Of a DNA stretch of 8,797 nucleotides, positions 1 to 8,433 are shown one piece after another. Below the pieces are notes generated by a model. That model had not been told where the DNA came from and searched no databases. It saw only the letters and a program-made list of their open reading frames with translations. Position 1 is the first letter of the stretch. Every line of letters begins with the position of its first letter. The DNA is from a bacterium (GTDB lineage Bacteria; CSSED10-310; JAJRTK01). A program made the translations under genes and the position numbers. The DNA is taken from the NCBI GenBank assembly GCA_024278345.1, contig JAJRTK010000154.1, forward strand, positions 1 through 8,797. The letters are read 5' to 3'.

Positions 1-117
1 AGCAACGGGTCGTCGTGGGCCACCGCTTTCTCCTTTCCCAAGGTAACGTAGCAGAAAGAAGAGCAGATGCCCAGGGGAAAAGTGCCGGTGGCGCATGATT
101 TTCTGCCGACCCCGTGA

Positions 118-780
118 ACGCTTACGAAGCGCTGGGGGTTCACGCCGCAAAAGCCGCTGCGGCGCGCCTATGAGCAAAACCCGAAGGCAGTCCAGAAGTG
201 GCTGGATGAGGACTACCCCGCCATCGCTGCCCGTGCGAAGCGAGAAAACGCAGAGATCCACTGGGGCGACGAGACGGGACTTCGTTCCGATAGCCAACAT
301 GGACGCTCCTACGCGCCTCGGGGAAAAACGCCTGTGATTCGACTAAACGCCAGGCGTGAGTCCTTCAGCCTGATCTCCAGCATCACGAATCAGGGCAAGG
401 TTCGGTTCATGACGTACCGGGGCGCGATGAACAGCCGAACGTTGATCCGGTTCCTGCGGCGCTTGATCAAGGATGCCGACCGGAAGGTGTTTCTCATCCT
501 GGACAATCTCCGGGTCCACCACAGCAGGCAGGTGAAGGCCTGGCTGGAGGAGCACAAGGAGGAGATCGAGGTATTCTACCTACCCTCGTACTCGCCAGAG
601 CCGAATCCGGACGAGTACCTGAACTGTGACCTCAAGGCTGGTGTGCACTCAGGCCCACCGGCACGCACGGTAGAGCAGTTACGGGCGAAGGCGATCTCCC
701 ACCTGCGCAAGCTCCAGAAGTTGCCCCATCGAGTGCGCTCGTATTTCCGACACCCGAAGATTCGATACGCAGCCGCCTAG
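118..780 (+). pseudogene. IS630-family transposase, N-terminally truncated remnant
   Basis: The frame ending at the TAG at 778-780 is open back to an in-frame TGA at 115-117. It reads KRWGFTPQKPLRRAYEQ, then the IS630 (Tc1/mariner-like) DDE catalytic core. The three catalytic acidic residues are visible: D at 268-270 in WGDETG, D at 502-504 in LILDN, and E at 613-615 in SPEPNPDE, with 36 residues between the last two. About 220 codons remain of a family norm near 340. The DNA-binding helix-turn-helix half is missing: bases 1-117 contain stops in all three forward frames and show no match to it. An ATG at 334 would give a 148-residue product, but it starts after the first catalytic Asp, so any product should be inactive. 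SPEPNPDE replaces the usual SPELNPDE. Family assignment is firm; the cause of the 5' loss is not visible. Confidence 0.9.
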
Positions 781-1193: not shown

Positions 1194-2429
1194 TCATATG
1201 CATTGGCGCCACCGTCTTACGAACTGCTCGTACCGGGAGAGTGCGGTGCTAAGTTCCGTGACTGGAACAACCTCCTTGTGCGCCAAGCGGTTCCGAATAC
1301 CTTTCCAGGCCAGCGCCACAGACCGTGCAGTCGGGAAACCGGGATGATTCCTGGCACGGAGCGGGCTCTTCGGTCCGAATGCGTGGTGGGCAAGCGGTCC
1401 GATCTCTTCCATGACACCCGAAAGATGCCCTTCGTCGGGGGTACACAGATGGATCCAAGTGTCTCCGAAAGCCGAGTTGAGCCAGTCGAGCACTGCTTGC
1501 CGGACATGTTCTACTAAAGGCAGCAGCACTTCAGTCTGTCCTTGCCAGAGTCGTTTGGCGATCGCGTTCCGTCCCCCATGACAAGCAAGCGCGAGGGAGT
1601 GCACTACTATACCTGATCCGTCAATCCACTCTACCAATCCTGCTTTCCACAATCTGGAAAGATTCGGATCCATTTCGGGTGCACGGACGCGGTGTCCGTA
1701 AGGCACAAAGCTATCCATCACCGTTGATGGTGGTACGGCTAGCTTAATACCGTTTGAATCCTCGCCAAGACACTGCACTATATCGTCCACCGAAAGAGGG
1801 CGCTTCTCAAGGATCATCTGGGCCACGTCCGGGTCCCAGCACGCCACCCCCCGGCAGGCAGCGCGCAGCCAGTACGTTTCAGCCGCTCTACGGGGCAGAT
1901 TGGCGGTGAAATACCTCTCCACTGCACATTCCACGTCGACGAGGCGCTGCACGCCCCACCACCGAACCAGCCGCAAAAACACGTTTTCCTTGGGGAGTGG
2001 AAGGGATGGATCCAGAAGGGCCACCAACGAGAATGGTGCCCCCCCGCATGCTTGGGCGTGCTCACCCGCCGATGTGAGTAGGTGTACCCACGCCTCCCGC
2101 ATCTCCCCATCGATCCCCCACAGGTCGTCCAAAGCGACCACGCGGGAAGGGGCATTGCGCGCCGAAAGAATCTCGTCCATTGTCAGGTGAGCATCGGACA
2201 GGGCCAAAGCGCCGCAAAGCAGCGCTTCGGGTGAAACCCCTTTCACGACGGGCACTGACGCCCGCGTGACTTCCCCCACGCCTTCCGTGCGAACCTTCGC
2301 CCGCACAGCCGCCACTGGATTCTTGTCACGAATTCTAGCCGGAATCACCAACACCACGTGCTTCTGGCTCCGAAGCGCGTCCAGCACCCGTTCCAAGTAA
2401 ATCGAGGGCCCAGGAAGCGACCAGAACAC
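1194..2429 (-). CDS. HEPN-domain protein with degenerate ATPase-like N-terminus (putative RNase effector)
   Basis: This is a 411-residue protein with a GTG start at 2429-2427. The start is chosen because a GAGGG ribosome site lies 7 bases upstream and the stop of the giant gene only 3 bases upstream. The N-terminus (FWSLPGP, residues 2-8) leads into a helix, a strand (VVLVIP, 25-30) and a Walker-B-like VVALDDL (97-103). No GxxxxGK[ST] motif is present, so this looks like a P-loop-fold relative that may not hydrolyse ATP. Residues about 220-288 resemble a winged helix. Residues about 295-411 look like a HEPN four-helix domain: LPLVEHVR (303-310) in an early helix and RNRLAH (379-384), the R-x4-H signature with Asn after the Arg that is typical of HEPN ribonucleases. 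No signal peptide or membrane segment is seen, so it is probably cytoplasmic. The role as RNase effector of the neighbouring NTPase is inference. I do not recognise a named family. Confidence 0.8.
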   Translation of the reverse strand: MFWSLPGPSIYLERVLDALRSQKHVVLVIPARIRDKNPVAAVRAKVRTEGVGEVTRASVPVVKGVSPEALLCGALALSDAHLTMDEILSARNAPSRVVALDDLWGIDGEMREAWVHLLTSAGEHAQACGGAPFSLVALLDPSLPLPKENVFLRLVRWWGVQRLVDVECAVERYFTANLPRRAAETYWLRAACRGVACWDPDVAQMILEKRPLSVDDIVQCLGEDSNGIKLAVPPSTVMDSFVPYGHRVRAPEMDPNLSRLWKAGLVEWIDGSGIVVHSLALACHGGRNAIAKRLWQGQTEVLLPLVEHVRQAVLDWLNSAFGDTWIHLCTPDEGHLSGVMEEIGPLAHHAFGPKSPLRARNHPGFPTARSVALAWKGIRNRLAHKEVVPVTELSTALSRYEQFVRRWRQCI

Positions 2430-2432
2430 AGC

Positions 2433-5400
2433 TTATCCCTCAGCCAGCAGCGCTAGCAATAGTTCTGCCAGCATCGGGGATACATGAAAGCAGTCGGATG
2501 CACCTTCCAGGATGTCCAGGTCCAATAAGAACTGCACTGTACGGGCAAGCAATTCCTCGTCGTGCAACTCAGCCGAACCTAGCAGCTCAGCCAGTTCGAC
2601 ACGTCTCAAAGGCTCCCCATACTCAGCGATCACCCCCAAGACCTGGACCGGAAGTGTCCCTGGTGAAAGGCCAATCTCATCAAGGGCACGCAGCTGAGGC
2701 GCCGACCCATTCTCCACTCCAGCTCCCTTGCTCGACCAGAACCTCTCCATCTCCGCCATGAGCGGCCCTAAGTATCCCCCGCTTCGCCGCAGCCACCGCG
2801 TCGGCTGTTTCCCGTCACTAGGCACCCGTTGCACGTCATCGAACCAGTGCCGAAGACCCCGTTCGCGCCAACGCCGCAGACGCACCCACGACACCGGAAC
2901 CCCATGGTGCGGCACCGTCCACCAACCCTCTTCGTATAGAGGCCAAGCGATCCGACTCGGAAGGGGCACAGTGATACGCAAGATGCGTTTCCGGCTCCGG
3001 AGTTTCCTTAAGTGCTCAGCTAAAGCCTCGAGCGCCGGCCGCACCGGGCTCCCAAGCCCGGTGACCAGTATCCGGCTTCCTGTTTTGTCTTTTGGATGCG
3101 CGGCCCATATCTTCCGAATTCGGGCCACCAGCGCCGCTGCATCACCGACCGACTCCCAATCGATTACGCTAAGGGCCCAGTCGGTTCTCATGTCGTTATG
3201 AAGGGTCCTGAGCGATGGCACCACTAGGTCGAGCCCGCTCGCTGCGCTTCCAAGCACGATGTCCAGTCCGTTTTGCGGAGTTAGGAGTTCCGTTTCCTGC
3301 GCAAGGGTGAACGGGCTCGGCGTCCACTCGTTAAACACACGGTGGATAACATGGGGGTCGGCCGGTTCCTCGAACTCGGCGTCCCCGAAGCGACCGAGCT
3401 CCTCCAGAATCTCGTCCTCGCTCCCGAGGAGTCGGAGCACGTTCGGACTCCGGAGGCGGTAACCTCCGCCCCGTTCTTTCAGCAGAATGCCGAGACCCAC
3501 CAGTTCCTCCAAGAGGCCTGCGAGTGCATCCTCGTTCGTGTCACTGAAACCTTTGGGCCACACTTCACGTGCCCGAATCAGGACATCTGAGGGCCTAAGT
3601 CCCCGTCTTGCCGTCTGTTCGTCGCCCGTCAAAGCAATCCATGCAAAAAGGTACCCGATGGCGCGATACCGCTTATCCAAGTCCAGAGTCCAGTCGAAAC
3701 GGTCCCGCATCATCTGGAGCAATTCCATGCCATAATAAACGGAAGCGATAACCTTTTCGTCTATGGTAAGTGGTGGAGTCAGCTCGATGCGTGCCGCTCT
3801 ATTCCTTAGCATCTCCTCCACGAGCTTGTGACAAAACAGCTGAACCAAGCTCGGGTTTCCTCCAGTGTGCGCAAGCACCCTCTGCACCAGTTCTCTTGGA
3901 ACGAATCGATAACCCAGCACGTCGAGGGGCTTTTCGATCAGAGCAGCAGCGTCCCTGGGTTCCAGCGGGCCCACACAGACGGGCTCACCAAAGTGGGCCA
4001 AGGGCTGGTTGGGCAGTCGTTCAAACCTGCGGACACTGTGAAGTCCGGTAAAAACGATCTTGAATCTCCTGCGGGTTTCCACCATCAGATCACGAAACAG
4101 CGCGACGTCCCGGAAACTCTGCTTGCTGTCCTCTTCAAGGAAATGGTCGCACTCATCCAAAAGCACGACGATCCTCCGAGCAGGCTGGTTTTCCAAGTGC
4201 CGTACCAAGTCGCGCTTGATCGTTTCGGGTTTCCAACCTCCGCCCCTCAGAATTCCCGCGTCGACAAGTAGGCTCCTCACGGCCCCCCAAGCGTCCCGGC
4301 GATGCTTGATTGCCGTCGAGAGCACGAATCGGTCGTTTTCAGGACGGTGGTACCGGCGAACCACCTCTTGGAGCAGGGCGGATTTTCCGAGTTGTCGCCC
4401 TCCATACACGATGCACGGTCCTGCGTCCGACCAGAGGGCCTCCACCATGTCCTGCCTTCCGAAGAACATCTCGGGCGGCACGCTGCCGGCCACCTCCGGC
4501 GTGTACGGGTTGATCGGCGCGCCCGCCAGTCCAATGGAGAACAAAGCCTCACTGCGCTGTACAGCGGTGAACTGGCACAGCCAGAGGAGAAGACACGTGT
4601 CAAGGATAAGAGGCGCGAACCGGTTTTTGCGCGCCGCGTGAATCGCCCGGCGACGATCCAGACAATTCCACCGGTCAAAGTAAAAAACAGTAATGGGGCG
4701 GTCTCGGTCCGCGTTACCTTCAAGCCATACCGCCAAGTTTTCCGGCTCCAAACGTCCCCATACAAGCACCAGATCGTGCTGGCCGTGCGCCGAAAACCCG
4801 AATCTGGGAAGCGGGGCTGAGATACTTGCCTTGACTCGGAGGTACTTCCAGTAGTTCGGGGAGCCGTGCGAGGTGATACGATCGAAACGCGCACTTGCAT
4901 CGACTTGGAATCCCAGCCACCGAAGAATCCTGAAAAGACTGCCAAACGCTTTATCGCCCCAAGAGCGTTTTGCTCGTTTCAGAGCATTCCACCCCTCCAT
5001 GACGTTAACAATATTACCTTCTTCGTTTGACGGTACCAAAACTTTTGGAAACACCAACTCACGTTTTGTGCGGATGCGCCGTAGCCACAGATTGAGATCC
5101 ACCGCGTGACCATACAAATCATCAAGTTTGGATATGAAGTCTTCGAACCGTTGTGGCGAAGGCATTCCCGCAAATTGATCCAAGAGATCCGCCTCGCCTG
5201 TGGCTGCAAACTTCTCCAGTCTGGCAAGCAGTTCCTCAGCGACCGCGAGTTCCCCGTGCTGGATGTGAGCGTCCAGCCGCCCTCCTATCTCCGGGGGAAC
5301 CAGCTCCCGCGCCTTCTTATTGGTTTGGAGAAAAGCGTCCACCCGCAGGCGCACCTCGTCCGCGCGTTGGGTCACCTTACGCTGTAAATCTCCACGCAAT

Positions 5401-8369
5401 CTGCTAACTGCGGCAACTACCTCCGCTGGGGCATCCAAATTCTCGGTATCGTCCAAGCTGGTAAATAACCGTTCCAGTTCGGACCCGAGTGAGGCGCGGT
5501 CCAGCTCGGTGATGGCTCCCTTCAGATAAGCCCCCTCGATCTCGTCCCGCAGTTCGTTGATGGTACGACCAGCGTTTCGCACCCAAGCCCGATGCTCGTC
5601 TATGAATCGCTCCTCCCAAGCTGCCAGATCAAAGGCGCTCTCTTTGGAGCAAAACCATTCTGAGAGCCGCCGTGCACTTCCGATGCGCCCTGCCTCCAAG
5701 TGCTTGCGCACTACCGCCTCAGCTTCCAGGGGCGACTCTATGTGCGACAGGATGGCGGTGATCGGGGCATGGTCCGCTTGCTCAAGCGAGGCTCGGCACA
5801 CTCCAGGGATCAAGAGGAGCTCGTTTTCCCAATCCGGTCCTTCTTGCAGGAGTGTGAGGTCCGACGTGTTGTCCGCCCAGCTTCCGCTGAGGCCTACCAG
5901 GGTGGCCTCGAGCATTTTCGCCCCGGCCCTTAGCAAGCGGGGCTGAACGTGTTGCTGGTAGTCACGCAAGCTGTCGATAGCAGTGTGGGCAAGCGAGCGA
6001 ATTTCTTTAAGCACTTGATGTGCATAGCTCGAGTCCTCCGATGAGACCGCCGAGCGTTCTGACCATAACGCCAGCCACTCCTCGATCAGCATCAGGGCCT
6101 GATTCGCGTAGCGCTGCAGCGCCCGTAGTGCACGGGCTTCAATGGGGACCCGACCGGCTCTTTGGTTGACCTCCTGGTTCCGGCGAGCAACGATCGCCTC
6201 AAAACGACCGGGGTCACGCCATTCTTTGACGAAATCCCTGAGAGCTCGGCGGTCCGCTTCAGGCATGGATGCCTCTCGGAGCCTCTCCGACAGATCACCC
6301 GGCTGGCGGACCCATGAAAGCCAGACTTGGGTGGCGGCGTGGTACAAGGTGCTCCGATGCACCGCCTGCTCGAGCCACTCGTTGGTCCGCTGGTCTAACC
6401 TTTCCCGACGCCGCTCCCAGGCGAAGCGGACACCTTTGCCGAACAGAACCTCGTCGGGAAGAGGTCGACCGCGCTCTGAAAAGTCCGCCAGCTTGGTGGC
6501 AAGGCCCGGAAACCCGGCGAGAAAATCGAGTCGGGGGGCCAAGGCCCTGAGGAGAAAGGAGGGGTGAGCCAACGGCATGATGATGGAAGAGGTCACGAGC
6601 GGCGTGGCAAGCAAGAGATCCGTTTCACGGTCCGGCAATTCCGTCTTCGGAGCCAAAGCCTCGAAGCTGTGTCTGAGAACCTCCACAACCGCCTGTGCTC
6701 CGTAGCGGGGAGGCACCGTAAGGCGCAACGCGGTGAAAACTTCTGCCGGGACTTCACCGACCCCGGCCACGGCCAGCCAGTAGGCCCATTCCGGGCGCTG
6801 TTCCAAAAGCAGCGCGCCCATCAACTCCCGCCAAACCTCGGGCGGCCGATGTGTCTGTTTCCGGAGCCACCCTGCCAGCTCCGAACAGTTCAGGCGAGCC
6901 GGGGAAAAGAGCTTCGGCTTGTAGTCTTTCGGCTCCGGCTGGTGTGGCAGAGAGAGCGCCTCGTCCTCGTCAACCGGCCCCTTACCCGAGGGCACAATGA
7001 CCGGCTCCGGCCCCGCCGCTTTCCCCCTGAGGGGCTCTTGATCCACCAGTGGGACAGGAGGCGCCCCCGGCGAGGGCGCTGGCGCCTCCAGGGTACCTCT
7101 TTCTGATGGCTGCGGCGCAGGGGTTCCGCCCGGGGGGCGGCCCGCTTTGGCAAACGGTTGGCTTCCATGCGCTTCCTCCCGTGAAGCCTTGTCGGGTTTT
7201 TCCGGGCGGGCTTCCCGGGGCGGGGGCTCCCTCTCCCCGGGCCAAACGGCGGCCCCTTGCTCCCCTCGGTCGCAAGTTTCCCGGCGGACCTCTTCCGCCA
7301 TCAGATACTGCCCTCTTTGAATTCCCTCGACAAACCGGAAAGACAGATTCTCTTGTATAATTTCCCAGTGCTGATGTGACGCATCTTTCCGGTCTCGGAG
7401 GACATGCCCGAGGGCGGTCAACAAGGGCGCGATCCGCGCCGGCTCGGCACCTTCTGCCTCTCGGAGGCATCCACGCAGGCGGGAAACCTCTTCGCTGAGA
7501 GCCGCTGCATCGCGCCCCGGAGGGCGAGGCACGATCCGATCGGGAAGCCCCAAAAGGAACTCCATCCAGTCTTTGCGAGGACCGGGCCCTGGGGCAGCCA
7601 CCTTGGCTGCAAGACCGTCCCGAAGGGCCTCGACATCCTCGGGGCGAAGATCGAGCAGGCGCCACCCGAGGTCCGCCCCGGAAATGTTGTGGAGCGGTTC
7701 GGGGAGTTTCACCTGCGCACTGGCTGCGAGCGTGACCAGCCGGCGCGTGTGCGGATCCATGAGCTCCCCCACCCGCGCCTTCGTCTTCTGCATTTCTTCG
7801 CCGGCCTGCAGTAATCCCTGCCACAGAACGAAGGCCTCCCCTTCCCGATCAAGGATCGCCAGGCAACGCGTCCTGAGCGCAGAAGCCTCCATTGCCAGTT
7901 TCCCCTCGATCACCTTCAGAGTCACCAATGCCAACGCGGCCTCGCACCACGGGAGAAGCCAGCGCCACATTGGTTCAGGAATCGGGTCGGACACCTGCCT
8001 CACTGCATCCTTCAAACTGCAAAGCACCGGAGTCGGTATAAAGATCTCTCTCTCGTCAGCGAGGCGGAAAAGAACCCCGAGAGCGTCCAACCAGGTTCCT
8101 GGTTCACCGGAAGCCCAGCGTTCCGCGAAGCCATCGCTCCAATCTGCCCACCAAGTCGCCATCAGCAGAGTCGGATCGCGGCGAAACCGCGCGCGCAGGC
8201 GCGGTCTGGCAGCCTTCAGGGCGGCAGGGGTCGATCGCGTCAGCCCTATGCATTCCTTCGCCACAACAATTTGTGTCCGATGTGGCAACGCCTCCCACAA
8301 CGCAGTGACATGCTTCTCGGTGAGCAAGGCTTTCACTTCATCTTCCGAGATCAAGCGTTTCTCCTCCAT
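2433..8369 (-). CDS. Giant STAND/AAA_16-type NTPase, 1978 aa, putative conflict/defence protein
   Basis: ATG 8369-8367 is preferred because GGAGG lies 6 bases upstream. A GTG at 8411 would add 14 residues but lacks a good ribosome site. Residue numbers count from the ATG. Layout: helical domain (1-363); Pro/Glu/Lys-rich linker (363-486); long helical, solenoid- or coiled-coil-like region (490-1140); alpha/beta domain (1140-1283) with LPRFGF and ITVFYF; STAND ATPase (about 1290-1545) with Walker A GGRQLGKS (1323-1330, Lys1329), Walker B IVVLLDE (1400-1406), sensor-like IVFTG and TGGNPSL (GNP 1504-1506, the STAND GxP position); winged helix (about 1585-1650); degenerate nucleotide-binding-like domain (about 1690-1810) with GSAASGLD where a P-loop would lie; C-terminal winged helix (about 1890-1978). 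Core motifs look intact, so an active NTPase is expected. No membrane segments are seen. It is first in the operon, coupled to the HEPN gene. Function in phage or plasmid defence is inference; no named system is recognised. Confidence 0.88.
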   Translation of the reverse strand: MEEKRLISEDEVKALLTEKHVTALWEALPHRTQIVVAKECIGLTRSTPAALKAARPRLRARFRRDPTLLMATWWADWSDGFAERWASGEPGTWLDALGVLFRLADEREIFIPTPVLCSLKDAVRQVSDPIPEPMWRWLLPWCEAALALVTLKVIEGKLAMEASALRTRCLAILDREGEAFVLWQGLLQAGEEMQKTKARVGELMDPHTRRLVTLAASAQVKLPEPLHNISGADLGWRLLDLRPEDVEALRDGLAAKVAAPGPGPRKDWMEFLLGLPDRIVPRPPGRDAAALSEEVSRLRGCLREAEGAEPARIAPLLTALGHVLRDRKDASHQHWEIIQENLSFRFVEGIQRGQYLMAEEVRRETCDRGEQGAAVWPGEREPPPREARPEKPDKASREEAHGSQPFAKAGRPPGGTPAPQPSERGTLEAPAPSPGAPPVPLVDQEPLRGKAAGPEPVIVPSGKGPVDEDEALSLPHQPEPKDYKPKLFSPARLNCSELAGWLRKQTHRPPEVWRELMGALLLEQRPEWAYWLAVAGVGEVPAEVFTALRLTVPPRYGAQAVVEVLRHSFEALAPKTELPDRETDLLLATPLVTSSIIMPLAHPSFLLRALAPRLDFLAGFPGLATKLADFSERGRPLPDEVLFGKGVRFAWERRRERLDQRTNEWLEQAVHRSTLYHAATQVWLSWVRQPGDLSERLREASMPEADRRALRDFVKEWRDPGRFEAIVARRNQEVNQRAGRVPIEARALRALQRYANQALMLIEEWLALWSERSAVSSEDSSYAHQVLKEIRSLAHTAIDSLRDYQQHVQPRLLRAGAKMLEATLVGLSGSWADNTSDLTLLQEGPDWENELLLIPGVCRASLEQADHAPITAILSHIESPLEAEAVVRKHLEAGRIGSARRLSEWFCSKESAFDLAAWEERFIDEHRAWVRNAGRTINELRDEIEGAYLKGAITELDRASLGSELERLFTSLDDTENLDAPAEVVAAVSRLRGDLQRKVTQRADEVRLRVDAFLQTNKKARELVPPEIGGRLDAHIQHGELAVAEELLARLEKFAATGEADLLDQFAGMPSPQRFEDFISKLDDLYGHAVDLNLWLRRIRTKRELVFPKVLVPSNEEGNIVNVMEGWNALKRAKRSWGDKAFGSLFRILRWLGFQVDASARFDRITSHGSPNYWKYLRVKASISAPLPRFGFSAHGQHDLVLVWGRLEPENLAVWLEGNADRDRPITVFYFDRWNCLDRRRAIHAARKNRFAPLILDTCLLLWLCQFTAVQRSEALFSIGLAGAPINPYTPEVAGSVPPEMFFGRQDMVEALWSDAGPCIVYGGRQLGKSALLQEVVRRYHRPENDRFVLSTAIKHRRDAWGAVRSLLVDAGILRGGGWKPETIKRDLVRHLENQPARRIVVLLDECDHFLEEDSKQSFRDVALFRDLMVETRRRFKIVFTGLHSVRRFERLPNQPLAHFGEPVCVGPLEPRDAAALIEKPLDVLGYRFVPRELVQRVLAHTGGNPSLVQLFCHKLVEEMLRNRAARIELTPPLTIDEKVIASVYYGMELLQMMRDRFDWTLDLDKRYRAIGYLFAWIALTGDEQTARRGLRPSDVLIRAREVWPKGFSDTNEDALAGLLEELVGLGILLKERGGGYRLRSPNVLRLLGSEDEILEELGRFGDAEFEEPADPHVIHRVFNEWTPSPFTLAQETELLTPQNGLDIVLGSAASGLDLVVPSLRTLHNDMRTDWALSVIDWESVGDAAALVARIRKIWAAHPKDKTGSRILVTGLGSPVRPALEALAEHLRKLRSRKRILRITVPLPSRIAWPLYEEGWWTVPHHGVPVSWVRLRRWRERGLRHWFDDVQRVPSDGKQPTRWLRRSGGYLGPLMAEMERFWSSKGAGVENGSAPQLRALDEIGLSPGTLPVQVLGVIAEYGEPLRRVELAELLGSAELHDEELLARTVQFLLDLDILEGASDCFHVSPMLAELLLALLAEG
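2436..2440 (-). promoter_or_regulatory. Ribosome binding site GAGGG for the HEPN gene
   Basis: GAGGG (minus strand) sits 7 bases before the GTG start at 2429, inside the last codons of the giant gene. The TAA stop (2435-2433) falls between this site and the GTG. This arrangement implies translational coupling of the two genes on one mRNA and supports GTG 2429 as the true start. Confidence 0.65.
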
Positions 8370-8375
8370 AGGTAT

Positions 8376-8380
8376 CCTCC
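8376..8380 (-). promoter_or_regulatory. Ribosome binding site GGAGG deciding the start of the giant NTPase
   Basis: GGAGG on the minus strand is followed by a 6-base spacer and ATG at 8369. This is the only strong Shine-Dalgarno near the 5' end of the frame and favours a protein beginning MEEKRLISEDE over the longer GTG-initiated form from 8411. Confidence 0.75.
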
Positions 8381-8410
8381 AGTGCCAGACCGACCACATA
8401 CTGTCTTCCA

Positions 8411-8433
8411 CACCTGCACCTGCACCTGCACCT
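8411..8433. repeat. Perfect hexamer tandem repeat, (CACCTG) x 3.8
   Basis: There are three full CACCTG units and one of five bases, without mismatch, just upstream of the giant gene. On the minus strand the unit reads GCAGGT. The repeat runs into the alternative GTG codon at 8411 and is bounded upstream by an in-frame TGA (8435-8433). If translated in that frame it would give Gly-Ala repeats. A change in copy number would add or remove 6 bases, altering leader spacing but not frame. Confidence 0.9.

Follow-up and report, generated by a model that had tools for sequence, protein, structure and literature searches.

A Giant STAND/ORC-Cdc6-Type ATPase and a HEPN-Domain Protein Form a Conserved Gene Pair That Is Probably a Portable Defense Module

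The genes for a giant ATPase, referred to here as L, and for a small HEPN-domain protein, S, are inherited together as a unit that recurs in defense islands and on plasmids of distantly related bacteria. The best reading of these sequences is that the L-S pair represents a portable defense module that has no name in PADLOC, NCBIfam or the literature searched. We consider it fairly probable that the pair is directed against mobile elements, probably phages, and that L would sense infection and license the cleavage of RNA by S, with an abortive outcome.

RESULTS

The Operon and Its Genomic Setting

The window, that is, the whole stretch of DNA analyzed in this work, comprises 8,797 b and corresponds to a complete contig from the 550-contig assembly of a fragmented 6.1-Mb genome. 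As the contig ends there, the wider neighborhood is outside view, and no defense gene accompanies the pair within the window itself; neither a tRNA nor an Rfam RNA was found in it. Both genes are located on the (-) strand (Table 1), and a spacer of only 3 nt (GCT) between the stop codon of L and the start of S defines a tight two-gene operon. L and S are genuine, conserved genes and not chance ORFs, because a tblastn search identified relatives of L in 27 plasmid records, many of which have an S-like gene adjacent to it. The longest version of L begins with a GTG, but ATG 8369, which results in a protein of 1978 aa, is the preferred start because a GGAGG sequence is found 6 nt upstream.

The 3' end of the operon adjoins an ORF for an IS630-type DDE_3 transposase (window positions 334-780, + strand) that is apparently 5'-truncated or frameshifted. 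Window positions 1-127 are shared as a 127-bp fragment with another contig of the same genome (C146, locus L062, 3.2 kb), which codes for a 724-aa protein (408-2582, - strand) assigned as PglZ-like by its motifs. Judging from this common fragment, BREX/PglZ genes may be present near the window.

Table 1. Features of the L-S operon in the window and of related loci (residues of L are counted from GTG 8411; loci are designated L followed by three digits)
Feature	Position	Strand	Basis or remark
L, large gene, giant STAND/ORC-Cdc6-type ATPase	2433..8411	(-)	ORF; 1992 aa from GTG 8411
L N-terminal half, residues 1-1120, candidate sensor part	5052..8411	(-)	Fast-evolving
L conserved region before the ATPase, residues 1130-1310	4482..5024	(-)	Alignment; invariant G, R, D
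L ATPase core with the helical/winged part after it, residues 1320-1720	3252..4454	(-)	Most conserved stretch of L
L Walker A, GGRQLGKS	4380..4403	(-)	Translation
L Walker B, IVVLLDECD	4146..4172	(-)	Translation
L C-terminal domain, residues 1690-1992, without Walker A	2436..3344	(-)	Alignment; winged-helix-like end, read by eye
S, small gene, 411 aa, GTG start	1194..2429	(-)	ORF; relatives adjoin L
S N-terminal part, residues 1-283, conserved W-x-LPGP start	1581..2429	(-)	Alignments
S C-terminal Swt1-like HEPN domain, residues 284-411	1197..1580	(-)	Profile matches
S HEPN motif RNRLAH (R-x4-H), residues 379-384, predicted RNase active site	1278..1295	(-)	Translation, alignment
pPIWI-RE-L fusions	L003 5973-16157; L005 6957-16727; L017 4861-14163; L022 2771-12304		Followed by HEPN protein
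S with added C-terminal AAA_33 (polynucleotide-kinase-like)	L003 16157-17773; L017 14167-15816; L013 14391-15980

Sequence Features of the Large and the Small Protein

Based on the presence of both Walker motifs and on clade similarity, the ATPase of L is classified as a STAND/ORC-Cdc6-type AAA+ domain. The only Pfam match obtained for L was AAA_22 (E=1.3e-7, residues 1329-1461), with none to DUF499, and a PDB search with a profile of the core region matched Cdc6 at E=3e-5 and, at E=0.003, the STAND sensor PH0952. The Walker A motif, of the GGRxxGK[ST] type, is intact in all 26 L relatives analyzed, and a pattern search detected Walker B in 24 of them. The ATPase region has a mean column conservation of 0.4-0.6 as compared to about 0.06-0.4 for the N-terminal half, which is a candidate for the sensor. 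No nuclease motif was recognized in the alignment of the conserved region that precedes the ATPase. No NCBIfam model matches L, and the search of PADLOC-DB 2.0.0 returned SspC alone, with an E value of 0.022 over the ATPase, and no component of a named system.

The C-terminus of S is assigned by profile similarity to the Swt1-like HEPN domains and is thus predicted to cleave RNA. HEPN domains can also serve for binding instead of cutting. When run over 386 genomes, the S profile gave partial matches that cover its C-terminal ~100 positions, mostly in proteins of ~1110 aa, and the region matched was the HEPN_Swt1 domain of DUF499 proteins (E values of 5e-5 to 7e-4). Two of these ~1110-aa proteins were checked and found to start with HEPN_Swt1 (E values of 8e-41 and 5e-36), followed by DUF499. 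A profile-profile comparison with hhalign also related the C-terminus of S to Swt1-like HEPN domains (E=2e-5, probability 77%), whereas individual S proteins compared directly to the Pfam HEPN models remained below the gathering score (E values of 0.02-0.03).

In an alignment of 15 relatives that share about 12-24% identity with the S protein of the window, R379 and H384 are the sole invariant columns (15 of 15) and N380 is nearly so, resulting in the motif R-N-x-x-x-H. If R-x4-H had occurred at random, it would not be all that stays constant among 15 proteins with ~20% identity. An S alignment proved too divergent to serve for pattern scans. In the AlphaFold models, pLDDT was 38 for the whole of S and 59 for the HEPN part (3 sequences), which is helical, and a PDB fold search gave no significant match. 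No match to the S protein of the window, and none in the N-terminal part, was obtained in Pfam, NCBIfam or PADLOC-DB 2.0.0. A likeness of this part to the C-terminal domain of L or to a degenerate ATPase, noted by eye, was unsupported by profile comparison.

A sequence-only reading of the window had proposed a two-gene operon with a 3-base gap, coding for a 1978-residue STAND-type ATPase and a 411-residue protein with an R-x4-H HEPN motif. Both ORFs are real and conserved and lie on the (-) strand, which this reading did not specify; the length of 1978 residues corresponds to the ATG start, the ATPase assignment agrees with the AAA_22, Cdc6 and PH0952 matches, and the HEPN motif is that of the S family. 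Its description of the small protein as a HEPN protein applies to the C-terminus but is incomplete, since S also contains a conserved N-terminal part of ~280 residues.

Co-inheritance of L and S

Clear evidence for a link between both genes emerges from their joint occurrence. In 16 of 26 divergent, non-redundant loci, the gene directly after L is S; L037 was left out of this count because its similarity is distant and limited to the ATPase. The strains and species with this arrangement belong to Salinibacter, Thiodictyon, Microvirga, Azospirillum, Bradyrhizobium, Agrobacterium and Methylocystis and include Streptomyces fungicidicus. Following the construction of the first S profile, S was found next to L in 7 of the 10 loci identified by the L profile alone (L021, L022, L033, L034, L036, L044 and L045). 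Beyond the 16 loci, L047 has an adjacent divergent protein of 427 aa with RNNVSH (RNxxxH) near its end. Conversely, full-length S was present in 4 of the 386 genomes, with every copy abutting L, and in each of the 12 plasmid records that contain S, L lies upstream, in one of them only as a remnant. The distance matrices of L and S are correlated (Mantel r=0.81, p=1e-4). Taken together, the adjacency, the occurrence of full-length S beside L and the correlated distances establish L-S as a co-inherited unit and not as chance neighbors. Scans of genome contigs with single S and L sequences found no relatives, and S was absent from the seven other genomes of the phylum of the window that were searched.

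In L047 (34-12514), the divergent L is accompanied by an FHA protein and a kinase-like RyR-domain protein in addition to the RNNVSH protein, and this locus is possibly a phospho-signaling version.

Such a tight two-gene operon would also be compatible with a toxin-antitoxin system that stabilizes plasmids or islands, in which L would inhibit S, an RNase toxin with constitutive activity. HEPN proteins are the classic toxins of the HEPN-MNT pairs (PMC7641770), which likewise are two-gene units, and many L-S members are plasmid-borne. However, the partner of S is a giant ATPase and not a nucleotidyltransferase, and an ATPase of 2000 residues would be a costly antitoxin; furthermore, S sits downstream of its partner and not before it, and L is frequently found without S. 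Another argument stems from a plasmid of Bradyrhizobium sp. 186 (L063, 12854-15632), on which an L remnant that consists of the last 367 residues, lacks the ATPase and is 94% identical to L017 is located directly upstream of an intact S. The persistence of S at this site suggests that S alone is not lethal, and assuming that it is expressed there, activation by L is mildly favored over the neutralization of a toxin. A toxin-antitoxin function is therefore improbable in our view.

Distribution and Defense Neighborhood

L was detected in 5 of 386 genomes of a broad set and in 5 of 346 genomes of one phylum, corresponding to ~1% in both surveys. It is spread over many lineages and plasmids, and its occurrence is rare, patchy and highly divergent. 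Decayed copies were noted on Streptomyces and Sinorhizobium plasmids. No L-S match was found in 50,697 phage records, and two contigs of a viral collection carry L, although their status as phages is uncertain.

Neighboring genes were inspected in selected loci. Among the unfused pairs, that of L044 adjoins Druantia DruE1, a DruK-like nuclease and PDC-S68, that of L033 adjoins DSR2, that of L010 adjoins DruE3 and a GajB-like helicase, and that of L004 adjoins PDC-S37/Hhe and has type I-E cas genes in its vicinity. In Agrobacterium, a gene for a WYL regulator is directly upstream of L-S, and ThiF and patatin genes are downstream. WYL regulators of the BrxR type co-localize with defense systems (PMC9122601).

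The distribution of L fits a mobile defense gene and not a housekeeping gene. That L-S forms a housekeeping or metabolic operon without any link to defense is highly unlikely, since a gene of such rarity, patchiness and divergence that is plasmid-borne, lies in defense islands, is fused to a defense protein and has decayed in some of its Streptomyces and Sinorhizobium copies does not behave accordingly.

Fusions to pPIWI-RE and Other Partners of L

In Microvirga, Azospirillum, Bradyrhizobium and one contig of the viral collection, pPIWI-RE forms the N-terminus and L the C-terminal part of a single protein of 3100-3400 aa, with S adjacent. The fused part includes the N-terminal region of L, so that the whole of L is joined to pPIWI-RE. 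Two genes precede the fusion in Microvirga, Azospirillum and Bradyrhizobium, and those of Microvirga code for PprRE and PprDinG. In the L tree, the unfused L of Agrobacterium is placed inside the pPIWI-fused set, implying repeated gain or loss of the PIWI part, whereas L and S stayed together. The S proteins of the pPIWI-RE-fused loci possess an additional C-terminal AAA_33 kinase-like domain, identified by Pfam in Microvirga and by alignment in the other three. By analogy, this domain could perhaps be an RNA-end kinase beside a HEPN nuclease, reminiscent of Las1-Grc3.

About one-third of the L loci lack S, and in these L has a different partner or stands without one. In L015 (7456-17111), the gene for a giant L relative is directly followed by that for a protein of 933 aa that matches DrmE_C and HEC-07; in L016 (7666-17003), the partner of the L relative was assigned to the same DrmE_C/HEC-07 type only by its sequence resemblance to that of L015. 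Both loci hint at a DISARM-like variant. In other loci, L is found beside a BrxD-type ATPase and BrxHI (L035), an HKD-SNF2 helicase (L006), a DinG/RecQ-type fusion (L046) or a TPR protein (L012), and no partner was recognized in L008, L009 and L014. The module L thus occurs in several settings, most often with S as its partner. A further contig of the genome of the window (C455; L038, 8413-12254) carries adjacent genes for a TPR-nSTAND1 protein and an ATPase-protein kinase fusion, a possible further signaling or conflict pair.

The variety of these partners raises the question of whether L is a general adaptor of restriction-like systems, that is, an ATPase that would remodel DNA or complexes as a loader or scanner, like BrxC or the DUF499 ATPases. 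S would then be an interchangeable effector serving as a back-up RNase, and the recognition of foreign DNA would be due to the system. The fusion to pPIWI-RE, the DrmE_C/HEC-07, BrxD/BrxHI, HKD-SNF2 and DinG/RecQ-type neighbors, Cdc6 as the best match of the ATPase profile, and the presence of the same HEPN type on DUF499 ATPases are all in agreement with this idea. Nevertheless, the commonest, standalone form has S as its only partner, so that S must be capable of serving as the main effector in this form, and in the loci examined, no DNA-modifying gene lies beside the standalone pair. We regard an adaptor role as rather unlikely, while giving it serious consideration.

With less confidence than its role in the pair, and as a tentative proposal that may well prove incorrect, L could be a portable sensor or switch platform of prokaryotic immunity that was not described before. 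The effectors joined to it would be of at least four kinds, namely, S, pPIWI-RE restriction, DrmE-type DISARM-like genes, and helicase-nucleases; L-S would be its minimal form, and L would supply the missing sensing and abortive arm of pPIWI-RE systems.

DISCUSSION

As a general kind, systems that combine a HEPN nuclease with a STAND/AAA ATPase are already known. The nearest known case is the single-protein HEPN-DUF499 ATPase, in which a DUF499 ATPase with an N-terminal Swt1-like HEPN domain (Ava_2192 type; Hma and BREX-related Type-1 systems; PMC3710099, PMC12839542) shares with L-S the STAND/ORC-Cdc6-like ATPase, the R-x4-H HEPN motif and the defense context. However, in the DUF499 systems the HEPN domain and the ATPase form one protein of ~1100 aa that is accompanied by a methyltransferase and a helicase, whereas in L-S the HEPN domain is part of a separate small protein encoded after a different ATPase of ~2000 aa that lacks DUF499. 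As far as the short contig of the window extends, the two-gene form is without the methyltransferase and the helicase of Hma and BREX-related Type-1.

L relatives are fused to PprPIWI of the three-gene pPIWI-RE (Ppr) system (PMC3702460), with S after the fusion, but genes for PIWI, REase and DinG are all absent from the window. The part of the 2013 description of pPIWI-RE covered here (PMC3702460) mentions only a rare Zincin-like fusion. STAND proteins of the Avs and bNACHT types likewise are large NTPases with an effector and, by their size, a likely sensor, but L matches no PADLOC Avs or NACHT model, its ATPase is AAA_22/Cdc6-like, and its effector is encoded separately. As for the DISARM class with DrmE and for BREX, L relatives adjoin a DrmE_C/HEC-07 protein and BrxD/BrxHI, respectively, yet the window pair is accompanied by none of the core genes of these systems, and L is not a described component of them in the literature searched. 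A keyword search of open papers on pPIWI-RE, HEPN, NTP-dependent conflict, Dnd and BREX systems gave no description of an L-S pair or fusion, although an earlier description is possible.

The sequence-only reading had further proposed a candidate conflict system in which trigger sensing by the large protein would license RNA cleavage by the small one, and had named a conserved pairing in defense islands without a match to a named system as what would support it. Such support was obtained: adjacency was found in the 16 loci and one divergent case, Druantia, DSR2 and other defense genes lie beside pairs, and none of the named-system models of PADLOC or NCBIfam fits L or S. The pairing holds, but L is not restricted to HEPN partners and also occurs with pPIWI-RE as a fusion and with DrmE-like, BREX-like and helicase partners; the L-S pair is therefore one use of a wider module.

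In the mechanism that we favor, the fast-evolving N-terminal half of L, perhaps together with other parts, would recognize an infection trigger, and the STAND/ORC-Cdc6-type domain of L, on binding or hydrolyzing ATP, would bring about a changed state or oligomerization. L would then activate S by direct contact, and the Swt1-like HEPN domain of S would cut tRNA, mRNA or rRNA, leading to the arrest of the cell or the phage. At the pPIWI-RE loci, the L-S cassette fused onto an Argonaute-like restriction system would probably add an RNA-cutting fail-safe arm.

If this reading is correct, L-S would add an immune module that is missed by PADLOC-DB 2.0.0, and a single giant ATPase would have been put to use repeatedly, in Argonaute-like, DISARM-like and HEPN-based systems. 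Furthermore, pPIWI-RE systems would gain a plausible sensor and a fail-safe arm.
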